Assembly: GCA_900450455.1 (NCBI GenBank)
Contig: UGGN01000001.1
Coordinates: 806,001 to 870,000, forward strand
Length of the DNA: 64,000 nt
DNA from: [Eubacterium] infirmum
GTDB taxonomy: Bacteria > Bacillota > Clostridia > Peptostreptococcales > Anaerovoracaceae
Direction: 5' to 3'
This document shows positions 1,929 to 26,068 of the stretch, in pieces (the first letter of the stretch is position 1; the number at the start of each line of letters is the position of its first letter). The translations under genes and the position numbers were made by a program. The notes under the pieces are model-generated. The model had not been told where the DNA came from. It searched no databases and was given only the letters and a program-made list of their open reading frames with translations.

Positions 1929-1966
1929 ATATCTTCCTTAGAATCAGAGTTCTTGGAGGAAGATAT
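1929..1966 (+). promoter_or_regulatory. Hairpin hiding the transposase ribosome-binding site
   Basis: ATATCTTCCT (1929-1938) is perfectly complementary to AGGAAGATAT (1957-1966). The 3' arm contains the GGAGGA Shine-Dalgarno core just before ATG 1968. In any transcript that includes both arms the ribosome-binding site is paired, a common way for insertion sequences to keep read-through transcripts untranslated. Confidence 0.65.
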
Positions 1967-1967
1967 C

Positions 1968-8959: not shown

Positions 8960-9024
8960 TGATAAACCCAAGATAATAAACGGTATTATAATAATTTTAT
9001 ATTTGATTTCAGGAGGAATTGATC

Positions 9025-10098
9025 ATGAAATACGCACTCATAGGATGCGGAAGAATTGCAGTTAATCACATGAAGGCGGCGATTAACAATAATCTGGAGA
9101 TTGTTGCGGTTTGCGATATCAAGGAAGAGAAGATGGAGGAGCTTCTTGCAAAGTACGGTTTGGAGAAGGACACATCTATTAAGAGATATACGGATTACCA
9201 AAAGATGATAGAGGAACTGAAGCCTGAGCTTGCCAGCATAGCTACCGAAAGCGGCATCCATGCGGAGATTGCCCTGAATTGCATAGAGAGGGGCGTAAAC
9301 CTCATAATAGAAAAGCCTATGGCAATGAGCATAGAGGATGCCGACAAGATTATAGATCTGGCGGAGAAGAAGAATGTCAAGGTAAGTGCCTGCCACCAAA
9401 ATAGATTCAATGTTGCGATTCAGAAGCTTCGCAAGGCACTTGAAGACGGAAGATTCGGCAAGCTGTCACATGGATCTATACATGTGAGGTGGAATAGAAA
9501 TGCCGGATACTATGAGCAGGCTCCATGGAGAGGCACATGGGAACAGGACGGTGGAGCGCTTATGAATCAGTGCATTCACGGAATAGACCTTCTCAGATGG
9601 ATGATGGGTGACGAGATTGAAGAAATCTATGGCGCTACAAGACAGCAGTTCCACGATTACCTTGAAGCTGAGGATGTCGGAATGGCTGTAATCAAGTTTA
9701 GGAACGGAGCAATCGGCACGATTGAAGGAACTACGAACGTATATCCTAAGAATCTCGAGGAAACGCTCTACATCTTCGGCGAAAACGGAACGGTAAAGAT
9801 TGGCGGAACATCGACTAATAACATAGATGTTTGGGATTTTTCGGTAGAGACCGAGGAGGATAAGGAGAACAAGGGGCTTGAGGAAGAGACGAGCAATGTA
9901 TACGGAAACGGTCACACAAGCCTTTTTGCAGATGTGATGGACGCTATAGAAAACGACAGGAAGCCATACGTCGACGCTGTTGCCGGCAGAAACGCACTGG
10001 AGGTTGTGCTGTCAATTTACAAGAGCCAGAAGACAGCTGCGCCGGTTAAGCTACCTTTGAACAACTTCGCATCAACGGACATGAAGGGTGAATTTTAG
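9025..10098 (+). CDS. WlbA/WbpB-like UDP-GlcNAc-uronate 3-dehydrogenase (Gfo/Idh/MocA)
   Basis: A 357-residue NAD-dependent oxidoreductase. The Rossmann motif is ALIGCGRIAVNHM (residues 3-15), the family motif is EKPMAMS (about 97), and the sugar-binding half has RWNRNAGYYEQAPWRGTW and DGGALMNQCIHGIDLLRWM, close to the pattern I know from WlbA. WlbA/WbpB oxidises C3 of UDP-N-acetylglucosaminuronate, the step before 3-amination in the 2,3-diacetamido uronic acid pathway. The WbpA-like dehydrogenase and a WbpE-like aminotransferase occur later in the same cluster. ATG 9025 follows AGGAGG by 8 nt; an upstream TTG at 9019 is too close to that site. It is the first gene of the cluster. Confidence 0.85.
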   Translation: MKYALIGCGRIAVNHMKAAINNNLEIVAVCDIKEEKMEELLAKYGLEKDTSIKRYTDYQKMIEELKPELASIATESGIHAEIALNCIERGVNLIIEKPMAMSIEDADKIIDLAEKKNVKVSACHQNRFNVAIQKLRKALEDGRFGKLSHGSIHVRWNRNAGYYEQAPWRGTWEQDGGALMNQCIHGIDLLRWMMGDEIEEIYGATRQQFHDYLEAEDVGMAVIKFRNGAIGTIEGTTNVYPKNLEETLYIFGENGTVKIGGTSTNNIDVWDFSVETEEDKENKGLEEETSNVYGNGHTSLFADVMDAIENDRKPYVDAVAGRNALEVVLSIYKSQKTAAPVKLPLNNFASTDMKGEF

Positions 10099-10178
10099 GA
10101 AGCCGTAAACAGTATTATTTTAGCCTTTTGCCTCGAGTTATTTGCGAATGGTAAAAGGCAAGGAGAGGAATCACAGCT

Positions 10179-12017
10179 TTGAATAGCAAGAATTTAAGAA
10201 TTGCAGCATTGATGCTTTTGGATGCCGTAATAGTTGAGCTCGGCGCCCTGTTTGCCGTAGCGCTGCGATTTGATATAAGTGAGCTTCCGGCAGAATACAT
10301 AAACAATGTAATTCGCTCAGCACCTATATACATAGCCATAACCATTGCGGTAATGTTTTTGTTTAGGCTGTACAACAGAGTTTGGAGCTATGCATCGGTA
10401 AAGGAACTGCTGGATATATTTAAGGCATCCCTTGCGATAGAGGCCTTGATTATTTCATATCATGTCCTAATGCAGTACGATATGCCAAGAAGCTATTACC
10501 CTATGCACTTCATCGCAATCATAATCATGTTCTCGGCACCAAGATTCAGCAAGCAGCTGTACAGGAGCTTGAGAGGAAGCTATGACAATGATAAGATAAA
10601 CAAGTTTATTCTCGTCATCGGGGCAGGTTCCGCTGCATCGATTTTGATCAAGGATATCAATAAGGTCGGCTCTCATTCCAAGATTGTCTGCGCTGTAGAC
10701 GACAATGTGAACAAAAGGGGCAAAATGCTTATGGGCGTGCCTATAGTAGGAACGAGGGATGATGTAAAGCGCGCCGTAAAGAAATACAACGTAAACGAGA
10801 TAATAATAGCTATGCCGTCGGCTGCATCGGAGGATATCAAGAGCATAATCGCAATCTGCCAGGAAACCAAGCTTCCTGTTAAAATCCTTCCTTCGGTAGC
10901 CAAGAGCCTTTCTTCTTCAATAGTTAGGGAGTTGAGAGCCATAAGTTACGAGGATTTGCTTGGCAGAGATGCCATCAACGTCGATTCGAGCGGCATAAAC
11001 AATTTTATCAAGGACAAGACTGTACTAATCACCGGTGGCGGCGGTTCTATAGGATCGGAGCTGTGCAGGCAGGTGATAAGGTATGAGCCTAAGTGTCTCG
11101 TCATATTCGATATATATGAGAACAACGCCTACGAGATCCAGATGGAGCTCGAGAGACATTTTCCAAATGCGCAGATTATAACTTTGATAGGTTCGATAAG
11201 AGACTACGACAGGCTTGAGGCTATGTTTGCAGAATATAGACCGCAGATCGTATACCATGCTGCTGCGCATAAGCATGTTCCTTTGATGGAGGATTCTCCT
11301 AATGAGGCTATTAAGAACAACTGTCTGGGTACGCTTAATGTGGTCAAGCTCGCCGATAAATATCTTGTAGATAATTTCACTTTGATATCCACGGATAAGG
11401 CGGTAAGACCGACGAATATAATGGGGGCATCCAAGAGAATCTGCGAGATGATTGTGCAGGTCTATGCGCGTAAATCAGAGCATACCAGGTACTCGGCAGT
11501 CAGATTCGGAAATGTACTCGGAAGCAACGGTTCGGTTATTCCGCTCTTTCTAAAGCAGATAGAGGAGGGTGGACCTGTTACCGTTACTCATAAGGAAATC
11601 AGAAGATTTTTTATGACCATACCCGAGGCGGTTTCTCTGGTGCTTCAGGCGAGTCTCTTTGCAAAGGGAGGAGAAATATTTGTGCTCGATATGGGGGAGC
11701 CGGTAAAAATCTATGAGCTTGCGGAGAACCTTATCAGGATGAAGGGCTTCAGACCTCATCAGGATATTGAGATAGAGGTCATCGGTCTGAGACCGGGGGA
11801 GAAGCTTTACGAAGAGGTTCTGATGGACGAAGAGGGTCTGAACAAGACGGAGAACAATATGATCTTTGTTGGACAGCCGATTAAGATGAACGATGAAGAA
11901 TTTCTGTCCAATTTGGATATGTTGATAAGCGAGGCGGAGAAGAACGGCGGGAATATCAAAGGTATTGTAGAGGGTGTATGCAAAACCTATAGAATTACTG
12001 ATAATAAAAAGGATTAA
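10179..12017 (+). CDS. PglF/WbpM/CapD-like membrane NDP-sugar 4,6-dehydratase
   Basis: A 612-residue membrane enzyme with about four N-terminal transmembrane helices (residues 8-115), a first Rossmann fold (FILVIGAGSAASILIKDI near 145) and a second short-chain dehydrogenase fold (VLITGGGGSIGSELC near 283). The active-site segment TDKAVRPTNIMGASKR (about 405) has Met where classical dehydrogenases have Tyr, a hallmark of the PglF/WbpM dehydratases. These convert UDP-GlcNAc to the 4-keto-6-deoxy sugar that is later aminated and acetylated to bacillosamine. The start is a TTG after AGGAGAGG; in-frame ATGs further in would cut the first helix. A hairpin (GCCTTTTGCC with GGTAAAAGGC) lies in the 80-bp gap before it. 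Confidence 0.9.
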   Translation: MNSKNLRIAALMLLDAVIVELGALFAVALRFDISELPAEYINNVIRSAPIYIAITIAVMFLFRLYNRVWSYASVKELLDIFKASLAIEALIISYHVLMQYDMPRSYYPMHFIAIIIMFSAPRFSKQLYRSLRGSYDNDKINKFILVIGAGSAASILIKDINKVGSHSKIVCAVDDNVNKRGKMLMGVPIVGTRDDVKRAVKKYNVNEIIIAMPSAASEDIKSIIAICQETKLPVKILPSVAKSLSSSIVRELRAISYEDLLGRDAINVDSSGINNFIKDKTVLITGGGGSIGSELCRQVIRYEPKCLVIFDIYENNAYEIQMELERHFPNAQIITLIGSIRDYDRLEAMFAEYRPQIVYHAAAHKHVPLMEDSPNEAIKNNCLGTLNVVKLADKYLVDNFTLISTDKAVRPTNIMGASKRICEMIVQVYARKSEHTRYSAVRFGNVLGSNGSVIPLFLKQIEEGGPVTVTHKEIRRFFMTIPEAVSLVLQASLFAKGGEIFVLDMGEPVKIYELAENLIRMKGFRPHQDIEIEVIGLRPGEKLYEEVLMDEEGLNKTENNMIFVGQPIKMNDEEFLSNLDMLISEAEKNGGNIKGIVEGVCKTYRITDNKKD

Positions 12018-12038
12018 TATTATCAACGAGAAGACAGG

Positions 12039-13172: not shown

Positions 13173-13187
13173 GGTGGAGAAATTGTT

Positions 13188-14525
13188 TTGAGAATAGTAG
13201 AGAGCAATAAGGGGAAAACTTTACTCAGGAATATTTCGGGTGCGTTTGTTTTCAAGGGTCTCGGTATGTTGCTATCTTTTTTTTCTCTGCCTATTTATAT
13301 GAGATTCTTTGATAATAAGCTTGTTTTAGGCGTTTGGTTCACCATTTTATCTACATCGAACTGGATTTTTATGTTCGATATTGGAATAGGTAACGGTCTT
13401 AGAAACTGCCTTACGAGAGAACTTGTCAGAGGAGATAAGAAACGCATAAAATCCTATATCTCATCCGCCTATATAATGATTACGATCATAGCCATAGCTC
13501 TACTTGGAATAGGAACGCTGCTGCTCGGATATATAAACTGGAATAACTTTTTTAATATATCTGAGAATGTGGTTGATAGAGAGACTTTGAGTACCACGGT
13601 AAAAATTATATATGTTGGGATAATATTACAGTTCGTATTTAAGATAGTAATATCTATACTATATGCCTTGCAGAAGTCGGCAGTGAATAATATGATAGCC
13701 TTCTTGACATCGCTTTTTCAGTTTGTAGCTGTACTACTTATGCCGTCTTCGTCGGTAAGTGAGAATCTCATCAGACTTGCACTCGTATTTGTAGTAAGCT
13801 CAAATGTACTCTACATTGTGGTAACTATCTTTGCATTCAGGGATGAACAACTTAGAGGATGCGGTGTCAGCTTCAGCTACTTTGATAAAGAAGCGGCGAT
13901 GAAGACCATAAATATAGGTGTGCTGTTTCTCTGGACACAGATACTGCATTTTCTGATAGTGCTGACGGATGACTATCTTGTAACAAAATTTACATCACCT
14001 AAGTATGAGGTGTATTTCTCAATATACTATAAGTTGTTTTACTTAGTGGGTATGGCGTTTTCGCTTGCACTTACTCCGGTATGGTCTGCGGTGACAAAGG
14101 CTCAGGAGGAGAGAGATTACCTCTGGGTAAAGAAGATATACAAAATTTCCAATCTCGCTGTCATACTCGGTATCATATGTGAGTTTTGTATGATTGCAGT
14201 TATGCAATTTGTTGTAAATATATGGCTTGGTGACCACGCTATTCAAGTGGATTATACCTATGCATTTATATTTGCAGTCTATGGAAGTATCATGCTATTA
14301 CAATCCGTGCAGGAGACCTTTGCTTATGGTTTCGGGAAGGTGATGGTGCTATGTGTGTGCTATACGATAGGCGTACTCGTAAAATACAGCTTTGTGTACT
14401 TCGGTACGATGATGTATCCTAATGCTTGGATTATAGTGGTTTTATCAAATATTTTAGTAATAGCACCATACTGCATAATACAGCCGTTCTATCTAAAGAA
14501 AGAGATTGAGCGCCTTAGGAACTAG
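13188..14525 (+). CDS. Wzx-like polysaccharide flippase (first of two)
   Basis: A 445-residue polytopic membrane protein with about 12-14 hydrophobic segments and the N-terminal pattern of the MOP exporter superfamily (NISGAFVFKGLGMLLSFFSL, then LPIYMRFF). Such proteins move undecaprenyl-diphosphate-linked repeat units to the outer face. The start is TTG 13188 after AAGGTGGAG, 15 bp past the glycosyltransferase stop. A second Wzx-like protein (28300-29742) lies in the same cluster, so the two may serve different substrates or one may transport a lipid-linked modifying sugar. Confidence 0.85.
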   Translation: MRIVESNKGKTLLRNISGAFVFKGLGMLLSFFSLPIYMRFFDNKLVLGVWFTILSTSNWIFMFDIGIGNGLRNCLTRELVRGDKKRIKSYISSAYIMITIIAIALLGIGTLLLGYINWNNFFNISENVVDRETLSTTVKIIYVGIILQFVFKIVISILYALQKSAVNNMIAFLTSLFQFVAVLLMPSSSVSENLIRLALVFVVSSNVLYIVVTIFAFRDEQLRGCGVSFSYFDKEAAMKTINIGVLFLWTQILHFLIVLTDDYLVTKFTSPKYEVYFSIYYKLFYLVGMAFSLALTPVWSAVTKAQEERDYLWVKKIYKISNLAVILGIICEFCMIAVMQFVVNIWLGDHAIQVDYTYAFIFAVYGSIMLLQSVQETFAYGFGKVMVLCVCYTIGVLVKYSFVYFGTMMYPNAWIIVVLSNILVIAPYCIIQPFYLKKEIERLRN

Positions 14526-14600: not shown

Positions 14601-14636
14601 AGGAGAGCATGGTCTGAGACCGTGCAGAATCATATG
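14601..14636 (+). promoter_or_regulatory. Hairpin between Shine-Dalgarno site and start codon
   Basis: AGGAG (14601-14605) is followed by an 8-bp stem with a 3-nt loop (14607-14625, GCATGGTC and GACCGTGC with one G-T pair) and then ATG at 14634. The linear spacing of 28 nt is too long for initiation, but removing the 19-nt hairpin leaves 9 nt, an optimal spacing. A GTG inside the 3' arm (14622) is the alternative start. Confidence 0.45.
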
Positions 14637-15896
14637 TCAAAAGAAACAGCATTTAAGTTCGAAAAAAAAGTGTGGCTAGCCACACCTACAATTTATCAAG
14701 AGTCCATGGATTACATGAGGGAGGCCTACGAAACAAATTGGATGTCCACGGTTGGGGCAAACATAAATGAGCTGGAGCGTCTAGTAGCGGAAAAGGCTGA
14801 TACGAAGGATGCAGTTGCTCTTGCTTCGGGAACATCGGCGCTTCACCTAGCTATTAAGCTAGCTGGAGTAAAGCCGGGCGATAAGGTTTTCTGTACTGAC
14901 ATGACCTTTTCTGCCACGGTGAATCCTGTATTATACGAGGGTGGAGTTCCAGTCTTCATAGATTCAGAGTATGAAACTTGGAATATGGATCCGGTTGCCC
15001 TTGAGAAAGCATTTGAACTATATCCAGATGTTAAGGTTGTAGTAATCGCTCACCTTTATGGAACTCCGGCAAAGATGGACGAGATAAAAGATATCTGCAA
15101 CAGACACAAAGCAATAATTGTTGAGGATGCGGCTGAGTCCTTTGGCGCTACGTATAAGGGTAAGCAGACCGGCGGATTTGGACAATATAATGCAATCAGC
15201 TTCAACGGAAATAAGATAATTACCGGATCTTCAGGAGGAATGCTACTTACAGACGATGAGAAGGCTGCCGAAAAGGCTAGGAAATGGTCAACTCAGTCAA
15301 GAGAGGAGGCAGCTTGGTATCAGCATGAGGAAGTAGGATATAACTATAGGATGAGCAATGTCATCGCAGGAGTTGCCAGAGGTCAGATGCCGTATCTTGA
15401 TAAGCACATTGAACAAAAGAAGGCAATCTACGAAAGATATAAGGAAGGCTTCAAGGGAATCCCAATTTCGATGAATCCTTTTGATGAAGAAAACAGTGAG
15501 CCTAATTACTGGCTTTCATGCGCAATAATAGATGAGGATGCTATGTGTAAGCAGGTGAGAAGTGACTCTGAAGCTCTTTACATAAGCGAGCAAGGTAAAA
15601 GCTGTCCTACAGAAATCCTCGAGCATCTAGCTGAGATAAATGCAGAGGGACGACCTATTTGGAAGGCTATGCATGCACAACCAATATTTCGTATGAATGC
15701 TTTTGTTACGAGAGAAGGGTGTGGTAGAGGCCTTACAAATGCATACATTTCAGGCGGGAATCTGGGAGAAGACGGAAGAACGCTCGATGTGTCGATGGAT
15801 ATATTCCACAGGGGGCTTTGCCTGCCTAGTGATAACAAGATGACTGCTGAGGAGCAGGATATAATCATTGAAACGATTCGAAAATGCTTCGAATAA
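14634..15896 (+). CDS. PglE/PseC-like DegT aminotransferase
   Basis: A 420-residue PLP-dependent sugar aminotransferase of the DegT/DnrJ/EryC1 family. Visible are ALASGTSALHLAIKLAGVKP (cofactor phosphate site), VIAHLYGTPAKMDEI, VEDAAESFGATYKGKQTGG, and SFNGNKIITGSSGGML (about residue 190) with the Schiff-base lysine. Next to a PglF-like dehydratase and a PglD-like acetyltransferase, the natural role is transamination at C4 of the UDP-4-keto sugar. An insert of about 60 residues near 310-370 (SEQGKSCPTEIL through GRPIWKAMHAQPIF) is longer than in the simplest family members. The start choice depends on the hairpin described at 14601-14636. Confidence 0.85.
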   Translation: MSKETAFKFEKKVWLATPTIYQESMDYMREAYETNWMSTVGANINELERLVAEKADTKDAVALASGTSALHLAIKLAGVKPGDKVFCTDMTFSATVNPVLYEGGVPVFIDSEYETWNMDPVALEKAFELYPDVKVVVIAHLYGTPAKMDEIKDICNRHKAIIVEDAAESFGATYKGKQTGGFGQYNAISFNGNKIITGSSGGMLLTDDEKAAEKARKWSTQSREEAAWYQHEEVGYNYRMSNVIAGVARGQMPYLDKHIEQKKAIYERYKEGFKGIPISMNPFDEENSEPNYWLSCAIIDEDAMCKQVRSDSEALYISEQGKSCPTEILEHLAEINAEGRPIWKAMHAQPIFRMNAFVTREGCGRGLTNAYISGGNLGEDGRTLDVSMDIFHRGLCLPSDNKMTAEEQDIIIETIRKCFE

Positions 15897-16035: not shown

Positions 16036-17358
16036 GTGAAAAATATTAAAGAAACGCTTATTAAAAAAATTGAAAACCACGAGATAGTTGTAGGTGTTGT
16101 AGGTCTTGGATATGTAGGTCTTCCACTTGCAGTAGAGAAGGCAAAAGCCGGATTTAAGACAATCGGTTTTGATGTACAGCAGGAGAAGGTTGACCTTGTT
16201 AACAAAGGGCACAACTATATCGGAGACGTAGTAGATGACGATCTAATGGAGCTTGTAAATGCAGGACAGCTTTCTGCAACAAGTGATTTTTCCTTTGTTA
16301 AGGATGTTGATTTTATCGCTATTTGCGTGCCAACACCGCTAGATTCACATCAGCAACCGGATATCAGCTATGTAAAGGACTCAACAATCGCTATATCCAA
16401 GCACCTAAAGCCGGGCACAATGGTTGTACTTGAGTCAACGACATACCCCGGAACAACAGAGGAACTGATAAAGCCTATCCTAGAAGAAGGTTCAGGACTT
16501 AAGTGCGGAGAGGACTTCTACCTCGGATTCTCACCTGAGAGAGTTGATCCGGGTAACAAGCAGTTTAAGACAAAGAACACTCCTAAGGTTGTAGGAGCTA
16601 TCGGCAAGGATGCGACAGAAGTTATAGCAAAGATGTATCGCGAAGTTCTCGTAGGAGATGTTCACGAGGTTTCATCACCTGCTGTTGCCGAGATGGAGAA
16701 AATTCTGGAAAACACATACAGAAATATTAATATCGGTCTCGTCAATGAACTTGCCATTCTTTGCGACAGGATGAATATCAGCTTGTGGGAGGTTGTCGAT
16801 GCAGCTAAGACTAAACCATACGGATTTCAGGCGTTCTATCCGGGTCCCGGTCTAGGTGGACATTGCATACCGCTGGATCCATATTACCTTACATGGAAGG
16901 CAAGAGAGTACGGCTTCCACACGTCTATGATAGAGGCATCTATGATGATTAATGACAAGATGCCGGAGTACTGTGTAGATAGAGCTGCTAAGGTTTTGAA
17001 CCGCGCAAAGAAGGCTTTAAACGGATCAAAGGTACTTGTTCTAGGCGTTGCTTACAAGGCTGATATCGATGATTACAGAGAAAGCCCTGCTATCGATGTA
17101 ATTGAGATTCTTCATCGTGAGGGCGCCAGTGTAGACTTCTTTGACCCTTACATTCCAAAGTTCAGGGCACACGGCAAGGAATATGTCGGCATAGCAGATA
17201 TAAGCCCTGAAGTTATCGCAAGCTACGACTTGGTGTTTGTTGCAGCAGCTCACACAAAAGTAGACTACGAAATGATAGAGAAGAATGCACAGGCAATATT
17301 CGATTCTAAGAATGCGATGAAGGATGTTAAAAAGAGAGAGAAGATAGAAGTTCTTTAA
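16036..17358 (+). CDS. WbpA-like UDP-GlcNAc 6-dehydrogenase
   Basis: A 440-residue UDP-glucose/GDP-mannose dehydrogenase family enzyme. It has the N-terminal NAD fold (VGVVGLGYVGLPLAVEKAKA, about 20-39), CVPTPLD (about 98), ESTTYPGTTEEL, FSPERVDPG, the central helical ENTYRNINIGLVNELA, and the active-site GGHCIPLDPYYL (about 275) with the catalytic Cys. VLGVAYKADIDDYRESP marks the C-terminal UDP domain. 'FSPERVDPGN' and 'LGGHCIPLDP' fit the UDP-GlcNAc C6 dehydrogenases such as WbpA, which make UDP-GlcNAc-uronate for the WbpB-like step. The start is GTG after AGAGGT. Confidence 0.88.
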   Translation: MKNIKETLIKKIENHEIVVGVVGLGYVGLPLAVEKAKAGFKTIGFDVQQEKVDLVNKGHNYIGDVVDDDLMELVNAGQLSATSDFSFVKDVDFIAICVPTPLDSHQQPDISYVKDSTIAISKHLKPGTMVVLESTTYPGTTEELIKPILEEGSGLKCGEDFYLGFSPERVDPGNKQFKTKNTPKVVGAIGKDATEVIAKMYREVLVGDVHEVSSPAVAEMEKILENTYRNINIGLVNELAILCDRMNISLWEVVDAAKTKPYGFQAFYPGPGLGGHCIPLDPYYLTWKAREYGFHTSMIEASMMINDKMPEYCVDRAAKVLNRAKKALNGSKVLVLGVAYKADIDDYRESPAIDVIEILHREGASVDFFDPYIPKFRAHGKEYVGIADISPEVIASYDLVFVAAAHTKVDYEMIEKNAQAIFDSKNAMKDVKKREKIEVL

Positions 17359-17785: not shown

Positions 17786-18412
17786 ATGAAATCCAAGGCA
17801 AATGGAATATATTGCAAGTTAATAAAGAGGATTATTGATTTTCTGGTAGCGGCACTCAGCATAATAATCTTGAGTCCGGTATTTATAGTGCTCGCAATTT
17901 TGGTCAGGATAAAGCTGGGAGGACCTGTAATATTTACGCAGGAGAGACCCGGTCTTAATGGAAAGGTATTTAAACTATATAAGTTTAGGACGATGACTGA
18001 TGCCAAGGATGAGAATGGCAATCTCCTTGATGACGAGTATAGGCTTACCGGTTTTGGGAAAAAGCTTAGAGCGACAAGCCTGGATGAATTACCTGAGCTT
18101 TACAATATATTAAAGGGTGATATGTCCATTGTAGGACCAAGACCTCTGTTAGTTAAATATCTGCCACTTTATAGCGATGAGCAGAGAAGAAGGCACGATG
18201 TAAGACCGGGTCTTACGGGGCTTGCACAGGTATCGGGAAGAAATGCTATAACTTGGACTGAAAAGTTCAGCAAAGATATCGAGTACGTTGATAATATTTC
18301 ACTGGGGCTGGATATTTCAATATTTTTTAGGACAATTTATTGTGTGCTGAAAAAAGAGGGAATTAACTCGGAATCGGCTGCAACGATGGAAGACTTTACA
18401 GGGAATAATTAA
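17786..18412 (+). CDS. PglC-like initiating phosphoglycosyl transferase
   Basis: A 208-residue monotopic phosphoglycosyl transferase (bacterial sugar transferase family). One re-entrant hydrophobic helix (FLVAALSIIILSPVFIVLAI, about 20-39) is followed by the signature segments KLYKFRTMTDAKDENG, TSLDELPELYNILKGDMSIV (with the catalytic Asp-Glu pair), GPRPLLVKYL and RPGLTGLAQVSGRNA. It transfers a phospho-sugar from a UDP-sugar to undecaprenyl phosphate, the first membrane step. Its short size matches PglC, which uses UDP-diacetyl-bacillosamine, and the genes for that sugar flank it. Confidence 0.9.
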   Translation: MKSKANGIYCKLIKRIIDFLVAALSIIILSPVFIVLAILVRIKLGGPVIFTQERPGLNGKVFKLYKFRTMTDAKDENGNLLDDEYRLTGFGKKLRATSLDELPELYNILKGDMSIVGPRPLLVKYLPLYSDEQRRRHDVRPGLTGLAQVSGRNAITWTEKFSKDIEYVDNISLGLDISIFFRTIYCVLKKEGINSESAATMEDFTGNN

Positions 18413-18421
18413 GGAATTGCG

Positions 18422-19081
18422 ATGAAGAAAGAAAAGATAATCCTAGTTGGGACAGGACAGCATTTTAATGTTGTTCTTTACAATTTAAGAGAGCAGAATA
18501 AGTACGAAGTAGCTTGTGCAATCGATGGGAATCCCGAAAACAGAGGGAAGACCATAAATGGTGTCTATGTAGAACATATTTACGAGGACCTTGATGCACT
18601 TAAGGAAAAGTACAACACCAATAAATTCTTCGTATCATTTGGCAGCATGAAGTACAGAAGAGAGGTATATAACAGCTTTGTAGCAAAGGGCTGGGAGGCT
18701 GTGAATATAATACATCCAAACGCAGTTATTGCTCCAGATGCGAAGATAGGTATGGGTGTTTTAATTGAGTGCGGATGCTTGATAACACCTAATCCTACAA
18801 TCGGAGACAACGTTGTAGTAAACACCGGTTCACAGGTGAATCACGATAACGTCGTAGAGAATCATGTCTACATAGCATCCGGTGTGATACTTTCAGGAGG
18901 TGTCAGGATAAAGGAAAATACACTTCTTGATGATGGCGTAATCGTAACGCTCGGAAGGACTGTTGGTGCAAACTGTATTATTGGAGCCGGTGCGGTCATA
19001 ACTAAAGATACTTCAGACAAGATAGTAGCATACGGCAATCCTGCAAGAGAGATAAGAGAAAATCTGAACATCGGAAAATAA
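18422..19081 (+). CDS. PglD/NeuD-like sugar O/N-acetyltransferase
   Basis: A 219-residue left-handed beta-helix acetyltransferase. The N-terminal Rossmann-like UDP-sugar domain begins IILVGTGQHFNVVLYNL, and hexapeptide repeats run from about residue 95 (VIAPDAKIGMGVLIECGCL) to 205. GSQVNHDNVVENHVYIASG places the catalytic His near residue 141. PglD uses acetyl-CoA to acetylate the 4-amino group of UDP-4-amino-4,6-dideoxy-GlcNAc, the last step to UDP-diacetyl-bacillosamine. Its position directly after the PglC-like gene, 9 bp apart, fits that role. Confidence 0.85.
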   Translation: MKKEKIILVGTGQHFNVVLYNLREQNKYEVACAIDGNPENRGKTINGVYVEHIYEDLDALKEKYNTNKFFVSFGSMKYRREVYNSFVAKGWEAVNIIHPNAVIAPDAKIGMGVLIECGCLITPNPTIGDNVVVNTGSQVNHDNVVENHVYIASGVILSGGVRIKENTLLDDGVIVTLGRTVGANCIIGAGAVITKDTSDKIVAYGNPAREIRENLNIGK

Positions 19082-19091
19082 AGAGAGAAAA

Positions 19092-19994
19092 ATGAAGATT
19101 AGAGAACTTCTACAACATCTAAAAGAAAGTGGAGAAAGCTTTGAGTTTAATGGAGATGAAAGGTGTGATATAAATGGGTTTTCGTCGCTAAAGAACTATA
19201 AGCCCGGGACATTCACGTGGATCAAAAAAAAGGCATCGATTCCAGATAGTATGGACATTAGCAAATGTGAGCTTGTCGTAACGCAAAAGAACGAGAAGAT
19301 TGATTGCCAAAATGTCATCTATACGGATAGCTCAAAGAGAGTTTTCTTCTCGCTTGTCGAGTTCTTCGCAGAATCAAATAATGTGGCTACAGAAGGGAAT
19401 AGCATAGGGTATAACACGTACATTTCACCAAATTGCCTGATTGGAGAGAATGTTAAAATCGGTCATAACTGCAGTTTGGACGGTAAGATTAAAGTTGGCG
19501 AAAATAGCATTATTGGAAACAATGTTTCCATAAAGGGAAATGTCAAAATTGGTGAAAATGCCATCATAGAATCCGGCGTTTGTATAGGTGATGCAGATCT
19601 AGGATATGTAGAGGGTGCTGACGGACACAGAAAAATGCTGAGTCATTATGGTGGAGTCGAGATTGGAAAGTCCGTTTACATAGGAACAGGTTCCACGATT
19701 TCAAGGGGAACCATAGATGATACTCTTATCGGAGATGAAACCTCGATAGATGCACTTTGTCAGGTAAGTCACAACTGCATTCTCGGAAAGAAAAATACGC
19801 TGGTATCGGGAACATATTTATACGGTTCTGTAGAAACCGGCGATAATGTGTATATAGCATCGTCTGTAATCATGAACCAGATTAAACTGGGAGATAATGT
19901 TACAGTCGGAATGAACAGTGTCGTTATGTCAGATGTTGGAACAGGTCTAACTGTGTTTGGTACACCGGCTAAGGCACAACGGAAGAATAAATAA
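19092..19994 (+). CDS. LpxD-like N-acyltransferase A
   Basis: A 300-residue protein with the two-domain plan of LpxD: an N-terminal uridine-binding-like domain (residues 1-95; SSLKNYKPGTFTWIKKKA) and a left-handed beta-helix of hexapeptide repeats (about 105-285; ISPNCLIGENVKIGHNCSL). ALCQVSHNCILGKKN (about 219) aligns with the 'QIAHN..IG' segment of LpxD that carries its catalytic His. LpxD transfers an acyl group from acyl-ACP to the amino group of a UDP-glucosamine derivative in lipid A synthesis. A Gram-positive cell would not make lipid A, so the likely job is N-acylation of an aminosugar in this glycan, perhaps the WbpD-like step. Confidence 0.8.
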   Translation: MKIRELLQHLKESGESFEFNGDERCDINGFSSLKNYKPGTFTWIKKKASIPDSMDISKCELVVTQKNEKIDCQNVIYTDSSKRVFFSLVEFFAESNNVATEGNSIGYNTYISPNCLIGENVKIGHNCSLDGKIKVGENSIIGNNVSIKGNVKIGENAIIESGVCIGDADLGYVEGADGHRKMLSHYGGVEIGKSVYIGTGSTISRGTIDDTLIGDETSIDALCQVSHNCILGKKNTLVSGTYLYGSVETGDNVYIASSVIMNQIKLGDNVTVGMNSVVMSDVGTGLTVFGTPAKAQRKNK

Positions 19995-20033: not shown

Positions 20034-21020
20034 ATGGTTAAGATCGGTTTAGTTGGATTTGGATACTGGGGACCGAATGTAGCAAGAAACATCTACAGGA
20101 ATAAGAATTTTGATTTTAAATATCTATGTGATAAGAAGCCCGAAAGATTAGAACTTGCAAAGAATACTTATGCTGAGTCTGTCATATACACAGAGGACTA
20201 TAGAACGCTCTTGGAAGATCCTGAATTAGAGGCAGTTGCACTTGCAGTAGAGACCAGTGCTCACTTTCAGCTAGCGAAGGAAGCTCTTCTTGCAGGAAAA
20301 CATGTCTATGTAGAAAAGCCTTTTACAGATTCTGTAGATCAGGCTGTTATTTTGAGAGACCTGGCAGAGAAAAAGAAGCTTAAGATACATGTTGACCACA
20401 TCATGGTATACCATCCGGTAATCAAAAAGATTAAGGAGATAATCGATAGCGGAGAACTGGGAGAACTACTATACTTTGATTGTTCAAGAATCAACCTCGG
20501 GCAGTTAAAAAACGATGTAAGCTCAATGTGGGATCTAAGCGTTCACGATCTATCAATTATAGATTATCTGTCAGACGGTGCAGAGCCTGTTGCGGTAAGC
20601 GCTATGGGAGAGAAAATCTATACAAAGAGGGAATCTATCACATTCCTTAACATCAAATTCGATAAGTTCCTCGCTAACCTGCGCTCAAGCTGGTTATCGC
20701 CAATAAAAGAGAGAAGAATCATCATTGCAGGGACAAAGAAGATGATAGTATACGATGATGTTGATGCTCTGAACAAGCTAATCGTTTATGACAAAGGCTT
20801 TGATGTAAAGATTGTTGAGAATATGGAATATGAGGATTTTGTTGTAAAGACAAGAATTGGGGACGGTATAATTCCTTCACTAAATCAGGGTGATGCTTTA
20901 TTCAACAGCCTCGACCACTTCAGAGATTGTATAGAAAATAATCATGAATCTGTAACAGGTCCGGACTCGGCAATAAGAATGCTTAAGATTTTGGAAGAAG
21001 CAGATAAGCAGCTTATATAG
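20034..21020 (+). CDS. Gfo/Idh/MocA-family sugar oxidoreductase (GnnA- or WbpB-like)
   Basis: A 328-residue NAD-dependent oxidoreductase starting VKIGLVGFGYWGPNVARNIY (residues 2-21), with EKPFTDSVDQ (about 95), VDHIMVYHPVIKKIKEII and WDLSVHDLSIIDYL. It belongs to the 'GYWGPN' subgroup that usually sits beside a DegT aminotransferase and a hexapeptide acyltransferase, exactly as here. It probably oxidises C3 of a UDP-sugar so that the next gene product can aminate it, as GnnA does before GnnB. The 9025-10098 protein looks closer to WlbA, so the cluster may make two different 3-amino sugars. Confidence 0.8.
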   Translation: MVKIGLVGFGYWGPNVARNIYRNKNFDFKYLCDKKPERLELAKNTYAESVIYTEDYRTLLEDPELEAVALAVETSAHFQLAKEALLAGKHVYVEKPFTDSVDQAVILRDLAEKKKLKIHVDHIMVYHPVIKKIKEIIDSGELGELLYFDCSRINLGQLKNDVSSMWDLSVHDLSIIDYLSDGAEPVAVSAMGEKIYTKRESITFLNIKFDKFLANLRSSWLSPIKERRIIIAGTKKMIVYDDVDALNKLIVYDKGFDVKIVENMEYEDFVVKTRIGDGIIPSLNQGDALFNSLDHFRDCIENNHESVTGPDSAIRMLKILEEADKQLI

Positions 21021-21072: not shown

Positions 21073-22191
21073 ATGCAATTCATTGATCTACACAGACAAT
21101 ATGATGTTATAGAGAGTAAGGTAAACGAGAGAATCAAGGAAATCCTGAGCCATAAACACTTCATCGGAGGTGCAGAGGTTTCGGAGCTTGAGAAGAGACT
21201 CGCAGAATATGTAGGTGTCAAGCATGTGATAGCTTGTGCAAGCGGTACAGATGCTCTGACAATTCCTATGATGGCATACGGTCTAAAGAAGACGGACGCA
21301 GTTTTCGTACCGTCATTCACATTCTTTGCAAGTGGTGAAAGCGTAAGCCTTGCTGGGGGAACTCCGGTATTTGTAGATTCATGCAGAGACACATTCAATG
21401 TAGATCCAAAGGCACTTGAGGAGATTATTGCTAAGACAATTGCAGAGGGGAAGCTTACACCTAAGGGGATAATCGCAGTCGATTTGTTTGGGCTTCCTGC
21501 CAACTTTGATGAGATAAGAAAGATTGCAGACAAGTACAATTTATTCGTTCTTGAGGATGCTGCACAGGGATTCGGAGGAAGCGTTAATGGAAAGAAGGCT
21601 TGCTCATTCGGTGATGTTGCGGGTACATCATTCTTCCCAGCAAAGCCTTTAGGTTGCTACGGCGATGGTGGTGCTATTTTCACAAACTCAGACGAGCTTT
21701 ACGTGAAGATGAAATCCATCCACGTTCACGGACAGGGCTCAGATAAGTACGATAACATTCAGATTGGTCTAAACAGCCGTCTTGATACAATTCAGGCAGC
21801 AGTTCTAATTGAAAAACTAAATATCTTTGATGATGAACTGGTTAAGAGAAATCACGTTGCTGAGTATTATACAAATGCACTCAAGAACATAGTTGAGACT
21901 CCGGTGGTGCCTGAAGGCTATGGTTCATCATGGGCTCAGTTTACACTTAAGCTTAAGTCAACTGAGGATAGAGAAAAGCTAATCAAGAAACTTAATGATA
22001 ATGGTATTCCGGCTATGGTTTACTATCCAGTTCCAATGCATAAGTCAACAGCCTATGCTTCGGAAAACGAAGGTCTTGTACTAGCTGAATGCGAGAAACT
22101 CAGCAAGACGGTTATGAGCCTTCCAATGCATCCATACCTAACAGACGACGAGCTTAAGACAATCTGCGATATAGTAAAGAGTGCATACTAA
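21073..22191 (+). CDS. WbpE-like 3-aminotransferase (DegT family)
   Basis: A 372-residue PLP enzyme beginning MQFIDLHRQYDVIESKVNER. CASGTDALTIPMMAYGL, PSFTFFASGESVSLAGG, VEDAAQGFGG-like LEDAAQGFGGSVNGKKA and SFFPAKPLGCYGDGGAIFTN (about 180-199, with the Schiff-base Lys) are characteristic of the WbpE/WlbC branch. These use glutamate to aminate the 3-keto group made by WbpB-type enzymes. It follows the Gfo/Idh gene by 52 bp with GGAGGGGATG in between. It is clearly different from the PglE-like aminotransferase at 14634. Confidence 0.88.
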   Translation: MQFIDLHRQYDVIESKVNERIKEILSHKHFIGGAEVSELEKRLAEYVGVKHVIACASGTDALTIPMMAYGLKKTDAVFVPSFTFFASGESVSLAGGTPVFVDSCRDTFNVDPKALEEIIAKTIAEGKLTPKGIIAVDLFGLPANFDEIRKIADKYNLFVLEDAAQGFGGSVNGKKACSFGDVAGTSFFPAKPLGCYGDGGAIFTNSDELYVKMKSIHVHGQGSDKYDNIQIGLNSRLDTIQAAVLIEKLNIFDDELVKRNHVAEYYTNALKNIVETPVVPEGYGSSWAQFTLKLKSTEDREKLIKKLNDNGIPAMVYYPVPMHKSTAYASENEGLVLAECEKLSKTVMSLPMHPYLTDDELKTICDIVKSAY

Positions 22192-22203
22192 AAATAAACG
22201 ATT

Positions 22204-23439
22204 ATGAAAAAGAAAGTTTGGATTTTTAATCACTATGCCACCGACACCATGCTTGACCATGGCGGGAGACATTACTGGTTTGCCAAGTATTTGACGAGAG
22301 CCGGCTATGATGTGAGGATTTTCTGCGCATCTACGGTGCATGATACGGATATAAATTTTGATGTAGGAGAGGACGGCTACTGTGATAAGGAAGTAGACGG
22401 GCTCAAATACACGCTTATAGAGACATCTGATTATGTGGGCAATGGAAAGAGCCGTGTAAAAAATATGTACCAATTCTATAGGCGTATATTTCGTGTAGTC
22501 AGAAATTACGAAAAGCCGGATGTTATATTTGCATCATCGGTTCATCCTTTGACCTTACTAGCCGGCATTAAAATTGCCAAGAAACTTGGTGTTAAGTGTA
22601 TCTGTGAGGTAAGAGATCTATGGCCTGAAAGTCTTGTGGAGTATGATATAATCTCGAGAAATCATATAGTTACGAAGCTTATGTACAAGGGAGAAAGAAG
22701 ACTCTATAAAAAAGCGGATTACCTCATATTCACAATGCCTGGAGCAGGTAAGTACATTTCTGACAGAGGCTGGGATGCAGATGTATCAAAGGATAAAATC
22801 TATTACATAAATAACGGCATTGACTTAGAAGTATATAAAGAAAATATGCTAAACAAAACCATAGAGGATAAAGACCTCGAGGATGATAGCTTCAAAAAGG
22901 TTCTTTATACAGGATCTCTAAGAGCGGCAAACAAACCGGAAAACTTTATTTCTCTAGCTGAGCGCCTAGCTGAGATAGCAGGAAATATTAAAATCATAAT
23001 TTATGGCGGTGGAGATCAGCTTGAGACTTTAAGAGCAGAGGTTATCGAAAAGGGGCTCAAAAACATCCTGTTCAAGGGTCGTGTAGACAAAGAATACATA
23101 CCATTTATTCTCAGTAAGGGTAATCTAAATCTGATGGATGGCGACATTGGTGGCATTTCAAAATATGGAATAAGTGGGAACAAGCTCTTTGACTATATAG
23201 CGAGCGGTAGACCTGTAATAATGGATTGTGAGGAAAATGAGTTTGGAATTATAAATGCAAACAAAATAGGAATTTCAAGACGTTTTAAGGATTCTTCGGA
23301 AATGGCAGAAGTAATAGCCGATATGCTAAATGGCGATGACAATAGGTATGAGTGTTGGTGTGAGAATGCAAGGAAACTTGCACTTGAGTATGATTTCAAT
23401 AGACTCACGGATAAATTAATAGAGATAATTGAAAAATAA
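22204..23439 (+). CDS. Glycosyltransferase, GT4 family (WbuB-like)
   Basis: A 411-residue GT-B glycosyltransferase. It starts KKKVWIFNHYATDTMLDHGG and contains GGRHYWFAKYLTRAGYDVRI, the acceptor-domain segment EVRDLWPESL (about 138), YINNGIDLEVYKEN, VLYTGSLRAANKPEN (about 235), IIIYGGGDQLETL and KLFDYIASGRPVIMD (about 330). 'RDLWPES' is common in transferases of the WbuB/WcaI type that act on N-acetylated deoxy sugars. The ATG lies 12 bp after the WbpE-like stop without a strong Shine-Dalgarno, suggesting coupling. Confidence 0.88.
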   Translation: MKKKVWIFNHYATDTMLDHGGRHYWFAKYLTRAGYDVRIFCASTVHDTDINFDVGEDGYCDKEVDGLKYTLIETSDYVGNGKSRVKNMYQFYRRIFRVVRNYEKPDVIFASSVHPLTLLAGIKIAKKLGVKCICEVRDLWPESLVEYDIISRNHIVTKLMYKGERRLYKKADYLIFTMPGAGKYISDRGWDADVSKDKIYYINNGIDLEVYKENMLNKTIEDKDLEDDSFKKVLYTGSLRAANKPENFISLAERLAEIAGNIKIIIYGGGDQLETLRAEVIEKGLKNILFKGRVDKEYIPFILSKGNLNLMDGDIGGISKYGISGNKLFDYIASGRPVIMDCEENEFGIINANKIGISRRFKDSSEMAEVIADMLNGDDNRYECWCENARKLALEYDFNRLTDKLIEIIEK

Positions 23440-23453
23440 TAGGTGGTAGAATA

Positions 23454-24194
23454 ATGCAATTTACCTATTCTTGGTATAAAAATATAATCGAATTAGCAGA
23501 TAAACAAGGGTATTCTTTTTGTGACTACTCTAATTACAATAAGCATAATCAGGAGATTATCCTAAGACATGATATAGACATGTCACTGAGAAAAGCTGTT
23601 GAGATGGCTAAGATAGAAAATGAACTCGGAGTATCTTCAACATATTTTGTTTTGATGCTAACAAATTTCTACAACATAGGTGGAAAGACGGAACGCCATT
23701 TGATAAAAGAGCTTGTTAGTCTAGGCCATAATGTAGGGTTACATTTTGACGATACGGTTTACTGTTCGGAAAAGAACAGAAGAAGCTTTGATTATAGCAA
23801 GGCTATATCGCAAGAGGCTAGAATACTTTCCGACATAATAGGTGAGCCGGTAAAATTCATGTCTATGCATAGGCCTGATAAGGTTACTCTAGAGATGAAT
23901 ATAGATACGGGTGGAATAATAAATGCCTACGACAAGGTCTTTTTTGATGGAGAAATCAAATATGTATCGGATAGCAGAAGGCACTGGAGAGAAGATGTTG
24001 ATAGTATAATCACTAACAAGACATACGATAAGATTCAGATGCTTGTTCATCCGTTCTGGTATTACGAAAATGAAGTTTCGGCAACTGATGCACTCAAAAT
24101 GATTATAGGAGAAAGTGTTTCTGACAGATTTATGGCTATAAAGGATAATATAACTAGGGTTGAAGAATTTCTCAATGAAGAGGATTATCTTTAG
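23454..24194 (+). CDS. CE4-like polysaccharide deacetylase domain protein
   Basis: A 246-residue cytoplasmic protein without a signal peptide. It has the metal-binding pattern of the NodB/CE4-like superfamily: ILRHDIDMSLRKA (residues 36-48, with His39, Asp40 and Asp42), a metal-ligand type LHFDDT near residue 97, MHRPDK near 142 and LVHPFWYY near 197. WbmS-type relatives occur in O-antigen clusters. Because it is not secreted, its substrate should be a nucleotide-linked or lipid-linked sugar on the inner face, not mature polymer. It sits immediately before two LpxD-like acyltransferases, an order that suggests deacetylation followed by re-acylation of the freed amine. The activity is inference. 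Confidence 0.72.
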   Translation: MQFTYSWYKNIIELADKQGYSFCDYSNYNKHNQEIILRHDIDMSLRKAVEMAKIENELGVSSTYFVLMLTNFYNIGGKTERHLIKELVSLGHNVGLHFDDTVYCSEKNRRSFDYSKAISQEARILSDIIGEPVKFMSMHRPDKVTLEMNIDTGGIINAYDKVFFDGEIKYVSDSRRHWREDVDSIITNKTYDKIQMLVHPFWYYENEVSATDALKMIIGESVSDRFMAIKDNITRVEEFLNEEDYL

Positions 24195-24223
24195 AAATTA
24201 TCCAAAAAACTATGGAGGATAAT

Positions 24224-25129
24224 ATGAAACTATCTGAGCTAAACAATTTAATTGATAAAAAGATTGAAGTTCTGCGAGATGGAGAATTTGGTACGGTAAT
24301 GCTTTCGGGACTAAGGTTCGACAGAAACCATAAGACCGTATCATACATTTTGTCGATGGAGTATTTTCCGGTGGTTAAAGATGCAGGGGTAAGCTGTATT
24401 ATATGCCCTAAAGAAATAGCAGAGGATGTAAGAAGAGAGTTTGATGGAGGAATCTGCACATCAGATGATCCTAAAACCGTTTTCTTCCAGGCACATGAGG
24501 CTATATCAAAACAAAGAGAGGTAAGTTTTGACACTATCATAGGTGAAAATTGCAACATTGCAGAATCGGCAGTAATTTCGCCTAAGAATGTAAAGATAGG
24601 AAATAATGTAACTATAGACCCTCAGGTTGTAATTTATGACGGCGTTGTTATTGATGACAATGTGAGGATTATGGGTGGAACTGTAATAGGTTGTCCGGCC
24701 TTCTATTATTATGGGGATGGAGCAAAGAAAAAATTAGTATGTAGTTCCGGAACAGTGCATCTATACGAGGGCTCTACAATCCATACGAATGTTACGATAC
24801 AAAAGGGTGTAATCGGTGGCGAAACAAAGATAGGGCGTTATTCATCGATAGATAATTGTATAATGGTAGGACATGACGTGTGGATCGGAGAAAATGTTAT
24901 TGCAGCAGCAAATATTACCTTTGGTGGATGGGCAGAGGTTGGGGACAATACATTTGTCGGAGTGCAGGCTTGTATCGCCCCTATGGCTACTGTTGGTAGA
25001 AATTGCAAGATTTCAATGGGAGCAGTGGTTACAAAGGATGTGCCTGATAATTCGCAGGTATCGGGAAACTTTGCTATAGACCACAAGCTTTATGTGGAAC
25101 ATTTAAAGTCAATTTTGAATACAAAATAG
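24224..25129 (+). CDS. LpxD-like N-acyltransferase B
   Basis: A 301-residue protein with an N-terminal LpxD-like domain (residues 1-100; SYILSMEYFPVVKDAGVSCI) and a long left-handed beta-helix (about 108-285). The probable catalytic His lies in IDNCIMVGHDVWIGENV (about 216), the position of LpxD His239 in E. coli. FYYYGDGAKKKLVC near residue 165 is an insert that would face the UDP-sugar. ATG 24224 is chosen because GGAGG lies 6 nt before it; the ATG at 24212 is part of that ribosome-binding site. It shares organisation with the next gene but they are only moderately alike. Confidence 0.8.
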   Translation: MKLSELNNLIDKKIEVLRDGEFGTVMLSGLRFDRNHKTVSYILSMEYFPVVKDAGVSCIICPKEIAEDVRREFDGGICTSDDPKTVFFQAHEAISKQREVSFDTIIGENCNIAESAVISPKNVKIGNNVTIDPQVVIYDGVVIDDNVRIMGGTVIGCPAFYYYGDGAKKKLVCSSGTVHLYEGSTIHTNVTIQKGVIGGETKIGRYSSIDNCIMVGHDVWIGENVIAAANITFGGWAEVGDNTFVGVQACIAPMATVGRNCKISMGAVVTKDVPDNSQVSGNFAIDHKLYVEHLKSILNTK

Positions 25130-25162
25130 CGAGAACGAGTTTTAGTTCGAAAGAAGGTAGAT

Positions 25163-26068
25163 ATGTTTTTAAGTGATGTTTTAAAGAATATGGGTATCGC
25201 GTTTGAGGCAATCGACGAGAAGCCTATAAAATCGCTTGGATTGGTAAACTATAATGGCGGATGTGAGGTTTGTACCTTTGCCGAAAAGTTATCCTTTGTT
25301 GAAAATTTACCAAAGAGTATTTCAATGCTTATAACCAAGAGGGATGTTGCAGAATCGCTAAAAAATGAACCTAGAAATTATGGCTTTATTGTCACAGAGT
25401 ATCCTCGTGTTACATTCTTTATGCTACATAATACTCTTTGCAATTCAAAAAAATATGTAAGGGAAAAGATACCGACTAAGATTGGAAAATCATGTGATAT
25501 TAGTAAACTTGCCTGTATTGCAGATAACAATGTAATAATAGGAGACAATGTAACTATAGAAGAGTTTGTATCAATCAAAGAAAACACAGTTATTGGTGAT
25601 AACTGTGTAATAAGAACAGGGTCTGTTATAGGTAGCACAGGGTACGAATTCAAAAGAAATTTTGATGGAGATAAAAGTTTTCTAGTAGAGCATATTGGCG
25701 GTGTCAAGATTGGTAACAATGTAGAAATACAGCACAACACATGCGTCGATAAGGCTATTTATCCTTGGGATGATACAGTTATATCAGATTACTGTAATGT
25801 AGATAATCTTGTTCACATTGCCCATGGAGTTAAACTTGGAAAGCTAAGTTACGTAGTGGCTGGGGCAAAGATAGGTGGCCGCTGTAATATAGGTGAGAAT
25901 GTCTGGATTGGACTAGGTGCCATAATAAGAAATGGCTTGACAATCGGTAGTAATAGCAGAGTTAATATGGGAGCTGTAGTAACAAAGTCGGTAGCTGATG
26001 GCGAAGCAGTGAGCGGTAACTTTGCAATAGAGCATAGCCAATTCATCGCAGAAATGAAGAAGAAATAA
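25163..26068 (+). CDS. LpxD-like N-acyltransferase C
   Basis: A 301-residue paralogue of the preceding protein. An N-terminal domain (residues 1-105; AEKLSFVENLPKSISMLITK) is followed by hexapeptide repeats (ADNNVIIGDNVTIEEFVSIK). VDNLVHIAHGVKLGKLS (about 215) retains the LpxD-type histidine, and GSTGYEFKRNFDGDKSF lies where LpxD contacts the nucleotide sugar. Both B and C end with a similar tail ('SGNFAI.H...', SGNFAIDHKLYVEH and SGNFAIEHSQFIAE), which suggests an old tandem duplication. Confidence 0.8.
   Translation: MFLSDVLKNMGIAFEAIDEKPIKSLGLVNYNGGCEVCTFAEKLSFVENLPKSISMLITKRDVAESLKNEPRNYGFIVTEYPRVTFFMLHNTLCNSKKYVREKIPTKIGKSCDISKLACIADNNVIIGDNVTIEEFVSIKENTVIGDNCVIRTGSVIGSTGYEFKRNFDGDKSFLVEHIGGVKIGNNVEIQHNTCVDKAIYPWDDTVISDYCNVDNLVHIAHGVKLGKLSYVVAGAKIGGRCNIGENVWIGLGAIIRNGLTIGSNSRVNMGAVVTKSVADGEAVSGNFAIEHSQFIAEMKKK

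Follow-up and report, generated by a model that had tools for sequence, protein, structure and literature searches.

A candidate deacetylase and LpxD-like acyltransferases for amino-sugar modification in a clostridial glycan cluster

Why should a Gram-positive bacterium encode, within a glycan gene cluster, proteins that resemble the enzymes that deacetylate and re-acylate the amino sugar of lipid A? The question is raised by a 64,000-nucleotide stretch of the [Eubacterium] infirmum genome (contig UGGN01000001.1, positions 806,001–870,000; hereafter the window). In this stretch a gene for a predicted cytoplasmic deacetylase (hereafter DAC), starting at position 23454, is directly followed by two genes for LpxD-like acyltransferases (24212 and 25163), with a third LpxD-like gene at 19092, a Gfo/Idh oxidoreductase gene at 20034 and a DegT aminotransferase gene at 21073, all as listed in a first-pass annotation made from the sequence. 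These genes lie on the same (+) strand, with gaps of about 10–50 bases, and DAC and the LpxD-like genes are part of one co-directional, operon-like run in a complete glycan cluster, which also encodes glycosyltransferases. Chance open reading frames (ORFs) are ruled out, as the whole cluster is retained in a second species of the genus (70–97% protein identity) and the DAC family is found in many phyla. I consider it fairly probable that the operon produces a UDP-2,3-diamino-2,3-dideoxyuronic acid in which both amines carry chosen acyl groups, DAC and the 19092 protein recoding N2, and LpxD-like proteins of a second clade (clade B, described below) acylating N3.

The three LpxD-like proteins score 110–177 bits against the lipid A enzyme model TIGR01853, not reaching its cut-off of 242.5. 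The family profile aligns to residues 18–144 (the uridine-binding domain) and 128–313 (the β-helix) of E. coli LpxD, all three window proteins are full-length, and LpxD structures are the first matches to the AlphaFold model of the 25163 protein. The position of the catalytic His239 of E. coli LpxD is occupied by a histidine in all three, while that of His276 holds Gln (19092), Met (24212) or Gly (25163). In the 24212 protein, aromatic residues are found at the positions of both F41 and Y47, together with the catalytic histidine. By these comparisons the window acyltransferases are true LpxD homologues that fall outside the limits set for the lipid A enzyme. A lipid A pathway is ruled out: neither LpxC (PF03331) nor the LpxD N-terminal domain (PF04613) gave a match in the genome, with control genomes positive, and lipid A is therefore excluded as the context of the cluster.

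The sequence of DAC matches the CE4 model PF01522 weakly (13.8 bits, E 0.058), short of its cut-off of 23.1. The AlphaFold model, with a predicted local distance difference test (pLDDT) score of 95.5, shows a CE4 (NodB-type) fold, and the top rows of both the Foldseek and VIA-align searches are CE4 enzymes, with Z up to 13.1. PplD aligns with Z 13.1 and 3.2 Å over 171 residues, and PgaB, IcaB and ArnD (Z 11.6) are also among the matches. The CE4-like label of the annotation is thus upheld by the fold, but not by the sequence models. Eleven residues are invariant in 54 DAC homologues, namely R38, H39, D40, D42, H92, H97, H139, Y170, D173, S174 and H199; they comprise the motif R38-H39-D40-x-D42 (D-x-D motif 1) and the histidine at the position of CE4 motif 5 (H199). 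Of the H-x3-H pair of motif 2, H97 is retained, and H139 is a candidate for the substitute metal ligand. The annotation had described all metal and catalytic histidine motifs as present, which holds for the invariant DAC residues and for His239 of the LpxD-like proteins, but not for the H-x3-H pair or His276. DAC is predicted to be an active deacetylase. An outer-surface enzyme is unlikely, as the sequence, read by eye and not with a predictor, shows no obvious signal peptide or transmembrane stretch; a deformylase of the ArnD type is also unlikely despite the fold match, because formyltransferases are one of the DAC partner classes. DAC does not show the LpxC family or fold. The convergent LpxC–LpxD-like system proposed in the annotation is therefore half convergent, in that DAC would be a non-homologous stand-in for LpxC, but the acyltransferases are LpxD homologues.

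DAC and its partners form a putative two-step module that is widespread in bacteria and some archaea. A DAC profile search of genome contigs gave 80 loci, in Clostridia, Bacilli, Actinomycetota, Alpha- and Gammaproteobacteria, Bacteroidota, a spirochaete and haloarchaea; DAC also occurs on haloarchaeal and Sphingomonas plasmids, where the matches are mostly annotated as hypothetical. Where DAC is closely followed by a gene in the same direction (81 loci), that gene encodes an LpxD-like protein of ∼300 amino acids in 40 loci, often with a 4-base overlap, and the other recurring neighbours are N-formyltransferases, WbqC-like proteins, GNAT acetyltransferases, ATP-grasp ligases and carbamoyltransferases. 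Amine-modifying or acyl-transfer genes account for 64 of the 90 genes adjoining DAC (LpxD-like genes alone for more than 40 of these 64), versus 47 of 960 other genes in the same loci; because the classes were chosen partly for adjoining DAC, which inflates the first proportion, and the loci are related, the P value of this comparison is not to be taken at face value. The partner class switches at least 17 times on the DAC tree, which is weakly resolved. Within the host's order, a convincing DAC was found in 7 of 148 genomes, and a full-length LpxD-like protein in six of these seven versus 8 of the other 141 (Fisher test, 1.5e-6). The seventh (G005) has a formyltransferase gene after DAC, in locus L020. 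In locus L109 of genome G052, DAC is replaced by a PIG-L deacetylase, unrelated to it, whose gene overlaps that of an LpxD-like protein of a further clade, C. No description of a deacetylase paired with an LpxD-like protein or another such partner was found in the open-access literature, an absence that is weak as subscription papers were not covered; the module appears to be undescribed. Deacetylation and LpxD-type re-acylation of an amino sugar, as the annotation had suggested, remains the best reading, considering the conserved adjacency, the partner swapping, the PIG-L replacement and the lack of a lipid A pathway.

Several loci carry variants of this arrangement. In L064, L050, L065 and L071 a WbqC-like protein is encoded directly after DAC, in the manner of an alternative amine-modifying enzyme, and this position might hint at what WbqC does. 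In L026 and L027, DAC is followed by a pyridoxal phosphate enzyme of the ornithine/diaminopimelate decarboxylase fold and an ATP-grasp ligase, which suggests that an amino acid could be attached to the freed amine. A Sphingomonas locus (L012, 8980–11553) has an LpxD-DAC pair within an acetamidino module (amidotransferase, HisH, HisF2), which may point to a link between deacetylation and amidination. Four loci of clostridial metagenome-assembled genomes (L023, L024, L025 and L032, at ∼10000–14000) have DAC and an LpxD-like protein of clade A without a local WbpA/Gfo pair; the pair adjoins PIG-L and VTC-domain genes in L023, and a VTC-domain gene in L025. These four represent a different glycan context.

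WbpA, WbpB, WbpE and WbpD form an established route from UDP-GlcNAc to UDP-GlcNAc3NAcA (PMC10622841). DAC clusters usually also carry the WbpA/WbpB/WbpE route to 2,3-diamino-2,3-dideoxyuronic acids. In the window, the Gfo/Idh protein at 9019 is the orthologue of the Gfo adjoining the DAC-LpxD pair in other loci, and the DegT protein at 21073 is 51–63% identical to that in the WbpE slot of L017, L029, L039, L070, L077 and L107. A pathway of the GnnA/GnnB type, to which the annotation had likened these partners, is not borne out; the genes look like WbpA, WbpB and WbpE, of a uronic acid route, instead. The N2 acetyl group is inherited from UDP-GlcNAc along this route, and a deacetylase would therefore be needed only for changing N2. 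Two loci, judged by their gene content, support N2 as the likely target: L020 (TviC-like epimerase, WbpA-like dehydrogenase, epimerase, DAC, formyltransferase) and L086 (LpxD, DAC, TviB-like, TviC-like). No aminotransferase was found in the stretches examined, an absence limited by the locus ends, and N2 is therefore the only amine expected there.

Such loci could also be read to mean that DAC and the LpxD-like proteins act on another glycan sugar, for example on a lipid-linked intermediate or on a hexosaminuronic acid that lacks the 3-amine, the WbpABE genes being only nearby. In L020, L086, L012 and L023–L025, DAC stands beside a formyltransferase or LpxD gene without a local Gfo/DegT pair, and some CE4 enzymes, for example ArnD, are generally known to act on lipid-linked sugars. 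I nonetheless regard this as unlikely, as WbpE is accompanied by a WbpB-like Gfo in most of the DAC loci in which it occurs, and the operons of L029 and L039 are contiguous.

For the LpxD-like proteins, a tree was built from 77 sequences, most of which fall in clade A (38 rows) or clade B (22 rows), both with a Shimodaira–Hasegawa-like approximate likelihood ratio test (SH-aLRT) support of 98. All 60 have a histidine at the His239 position (38/38 and 22/22) and an aromatic residue at that of F41. Of the 38 clade A genes, 34 come immediately after DAC, and the remaining four, 19092 among them, are in the same cluster as DAC. Clade B genes lie between the WbpB-like Gfo and the WbpE-like DegT in L039 and L107, and with MaoC in L017 and L105; in relatives, the WbpB–WbpE slot holds a short wbpD in 17 clear cases and a clade B gene in four. 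The gene orders of L029 (WbpA-DAC-A-WbpB-WbpD-WbpE) and L039 (WbpA-DAC-A-WbpB-B-WbpE), compared side by side, indicate that clade B replaces WbpD and clade A goes with DAC. The window has no short WbpD.

In the window, 19092 belongs to clade A, and 24212 and 25163 to clade B; the genes adjoining DAC are therefore not its usual partners, its phylogenetic partner is the 19092 protein, and the gene order is shuffled. The annotation had taken the two adjacent genes as the partners. It would follow that DAC frees the amine, 24212 and 25163 re-acylate it, and 19092 acylates the 3-amine. I find this doubtful. In its favour are the physical adjacency of the three genes, the position of 19092 directly before the 20034 oxidoreductase (Gfo1) and DegT genes, and the clade B genes that likewise adjoin DAC in L018 and L019. 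The tree, however, groups 19092 with the LpxD-like genes found after DAC and the adjacent two with those of the wbpD slot, and clade-specific residues agree, the His276 position being Gln in all 38 clade A sequences, and Gly, Ala, Met and others in clade B.

As to the nature of the acyl groups, acyl-precursor genes lie beside the module in a number of loci: MaoC hydratases in L017, L046, L070, L074 and L105, thiolases in L072 and L077, and KAS III in L019, L033 and L036. This suggests that short 3-hydroxyacyl-CoA thioesters may be the donors in these loci. The O-antigen of Plesiomonas shigelloides O51 contains 2-acetamido-3-(D-3-hydroxybutyramido)-2,3-dideoxyglucuronic acid (PMC3210612), and this sugar is the product to be expected from WbpABE combined with MaoC and clade B. 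In the window glycan, too, non-acetyl groups may be present. It is improbable, in my assessment, that the LpxD-like proteins are ordinary acetyl-CoA N-acetyltransferases substituting for WbpD, with DAC inactive or leaving a free amine for amidination or charge: the clade A C-terminus has a G-x-PAK motif common in acetyltransferases, the window cluster has no donor gene, and for Acinetobacter a cytoplasmic deacetylase that yields free glucosamine has been put forward (PMC10936431), but removing an acetyl group to add it again would be pointless, the partners coupled to DAC include acyl, formyl and carbamoyl transferases, acyl-precursor genes adjoin the module, and the DAC active-site residues are invariant.

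In the mechanism I favour, the WbpA-like (16036), WbpB-like (9019) and WbpE-like (21073) enzymes would convert UDP-GlcNAc to UDP-GlcNAc3NA, and one or both clade B proteins (25163, 24212) would acylate the new 3-amine instead of WbpD. DAC would hydrolyse the N2 acetyl inherited from UDP-GlcNAc, and the clade A protein (19092) would re-acylate the freed amine, most likely with a non-acetyl group, so that DAC would take the role of LpxC, and clade A that of LpxD, outside lipid A. This scheme, whose activities, substrates, N2 position, order of steps and acyl groups are all predicted, is based on gene content, folds, conserved catalytic residues, the tree and gene neighbourhoods.

Several points weigh against this scheme, besides the partial preselection of partner classes. 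DAC is under the cut-off of every CE4 sequence model and lacks the second histidine (position 101) of motif 2. Its window neighbours are clade B genes rather than its clade A partner, and the window encodes three acyltransferases where only two amines are to be acylated. In clade A the second aromatic residue of the LpxD uridine pocket is lost, which makes UDP-sugar binding less certain than in clade B. The locus ends weaken the argument drawn from the lack of an aminotransferase in L020 and L086, and the window cluster has no acyl-precursor gene, which leaves acetyl possible as the group added.

The proposed module resembles the LpxC–LpxD pair in that a deacetylase would free the N2 of a UDP-amino sugar and an LpxD-family enzyme with a catalytic histidine would re-acylate it, and the MaoC genes beside LpxD-like genes recall fabZ beside lpxD in E. 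coli. In contrast, DAC has a CE4 fold, the LpxD-like proteins have His276 replaced and a shorter C-terminus, and the module lies in a glycan operon with WbpABE, the acyl groups probably being short. With the WbpA/WbpB/WbpE/WbpD systems of Pseudomonas, Bordetella and Psychrobacter the cluster shares the same dehydrogenase and aminotransferase set and, in relatives, an acyltransferase between Gfo and DegT, the window genes being rearranged; it differs in that WbpD (∼190 amino acids) is replaced by clade B proteins of ∼300 amino acids, and in the added deacetylase and second LpxD-like enzyme. WbmS (BB0128, PDB 3hft), of a Bordetella O-antigen locus, likewise combines a CE4-type fold with an O-antigen cluster, and gives the longest structural alignment listed for the DAC model (Z 11.8, 183 residues), but no sequence relation was found, as it is absent from the DAC profile matches with E up to 1. 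I am not aware of any reported activity of WbmS. The core-locus polysaccharide deacetylase 2901 of A. baumannii, proposed to be a cytoplasmic enzyme converting UDP-GlcNAc to UDP-GlcN in core synthesis (PMC10936431), offers a precedent for the deacetylation half of the module; its amine stays free, whereas DAC has a linked re-acylating partner.

Features of the glycan cluster in the window, with predicted or proposed roles
Feature	Position	Strand	Size	Basis
Gfo/Idh, WbpB-like 3-dehydrogenase	9019..10098	+		56–87% identity to cluster Gfo of L017, L029, L039, L048, L102
Membrane UDP-GlcNAc 4,6-dehydratase, WbpM/PglF-like	10179..12017	+		PseB model 197 bits
LegC/PglE-type 4-aminotransferase	14622..15896	+		TIGR04181 319 bits
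UDP-GlcNAc 6-dehydrogenase, WbpA/TviB-like	16036..17358	+		TIGR03026 above cut-off; TviB model 274 bits
Initiating phosphoglycosyltransferase, PglC-like	17786..18412	+		EPS_sugtrans model 244 bits
PglD/NeuD acetyltransferase	18422..19081	+		TIGR03570 178 bits, cut-off 160.8 exceeded
LpxD-like acyltransferase, clade A, proposed N2 re-acyltransferase	19092..19994	+	300 aa	Tree
Second Gfo/Idh oxidoreductase (Gfo1), role uncertain	20034..21020	+		Pfam GFO_IDH_MocA
DegT aminotransferase, WbpE-like	21073..22191	+		Pfam DegT 340 bits
Glycosyltransferase, GT4 type	22204..23439	+		Pfam
DAC, cytoplasmic CE4-fold N-deacetylase (LpxC-like role, predicted)	23454..24194	+	246 aa	
LpxD-like acyltransferase, clade B (long branch), proposed N3-type	24212..25129	+	305 aa	Tree
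LpxD-like acyltransferase, clade B, proposed 3-N-acyltransferase replacing WbpD	25163..26068	+	301 aa	Tree, AlphaFold model
Flippase	28300			

Elsewhere in the cluster, the products of 10179, 14622, 17786 and 18422 suggest a primer of the di-N-acetylbacillosamine type. Relatives of Gfo1 are directly paired with the WbpB-like Gfo2 in L059 and L070, and a double Gfo resembling this pair is also found in L072, L081 and L090. An ORF of 881 amino acids (29744–32389) has a Wzy/O-antigen-ligase-like membrane part (23.4 bits, cut-off 31.7) fused to a C-terminal D-glucuronyl C5-epimerase domain (PF06662, 77 bits), of which a second copy was not found among the fetched loci; this suggests a polymerase or ligase whose action may be linked to the C5 epimerisation of a polymer of uronic acids. 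A transposase ORF (MULE/Mutator family) lies at 1953–3089, upstream of cell-wall-binding genes.

A more general formulation, which I put forward tentatively and with considerable doubt, is one of amine recoding: across bacteria and archaea, the DAC family would strip UDP-hexosaminuronic acids of their N2 acetyl group and an interchangeable partner enzyme would put a new group in its place, both amines of the diaminouronic acid receiving, in this cluster, 3-hydroxyacyl-type groups through LpxD-family enzymes. If the DAC module works as proposed, the logic of deacetylation followed by re-acylation, thought typical of lipid A, would be in use with an unrelated deacetylase and with partners that can be exchanged, as a means of diversifying the surface amino sugars of Gram-positive bacteria, Proteobacteria and haloarchaea. 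Such a module would explain non-acetyl groups on the 2-amine of glycans, and provide a gene signature for predicting such groups. N-acyl groups are antigenic determinants, and the module would therefore bear on surface variation in gut bacteria.

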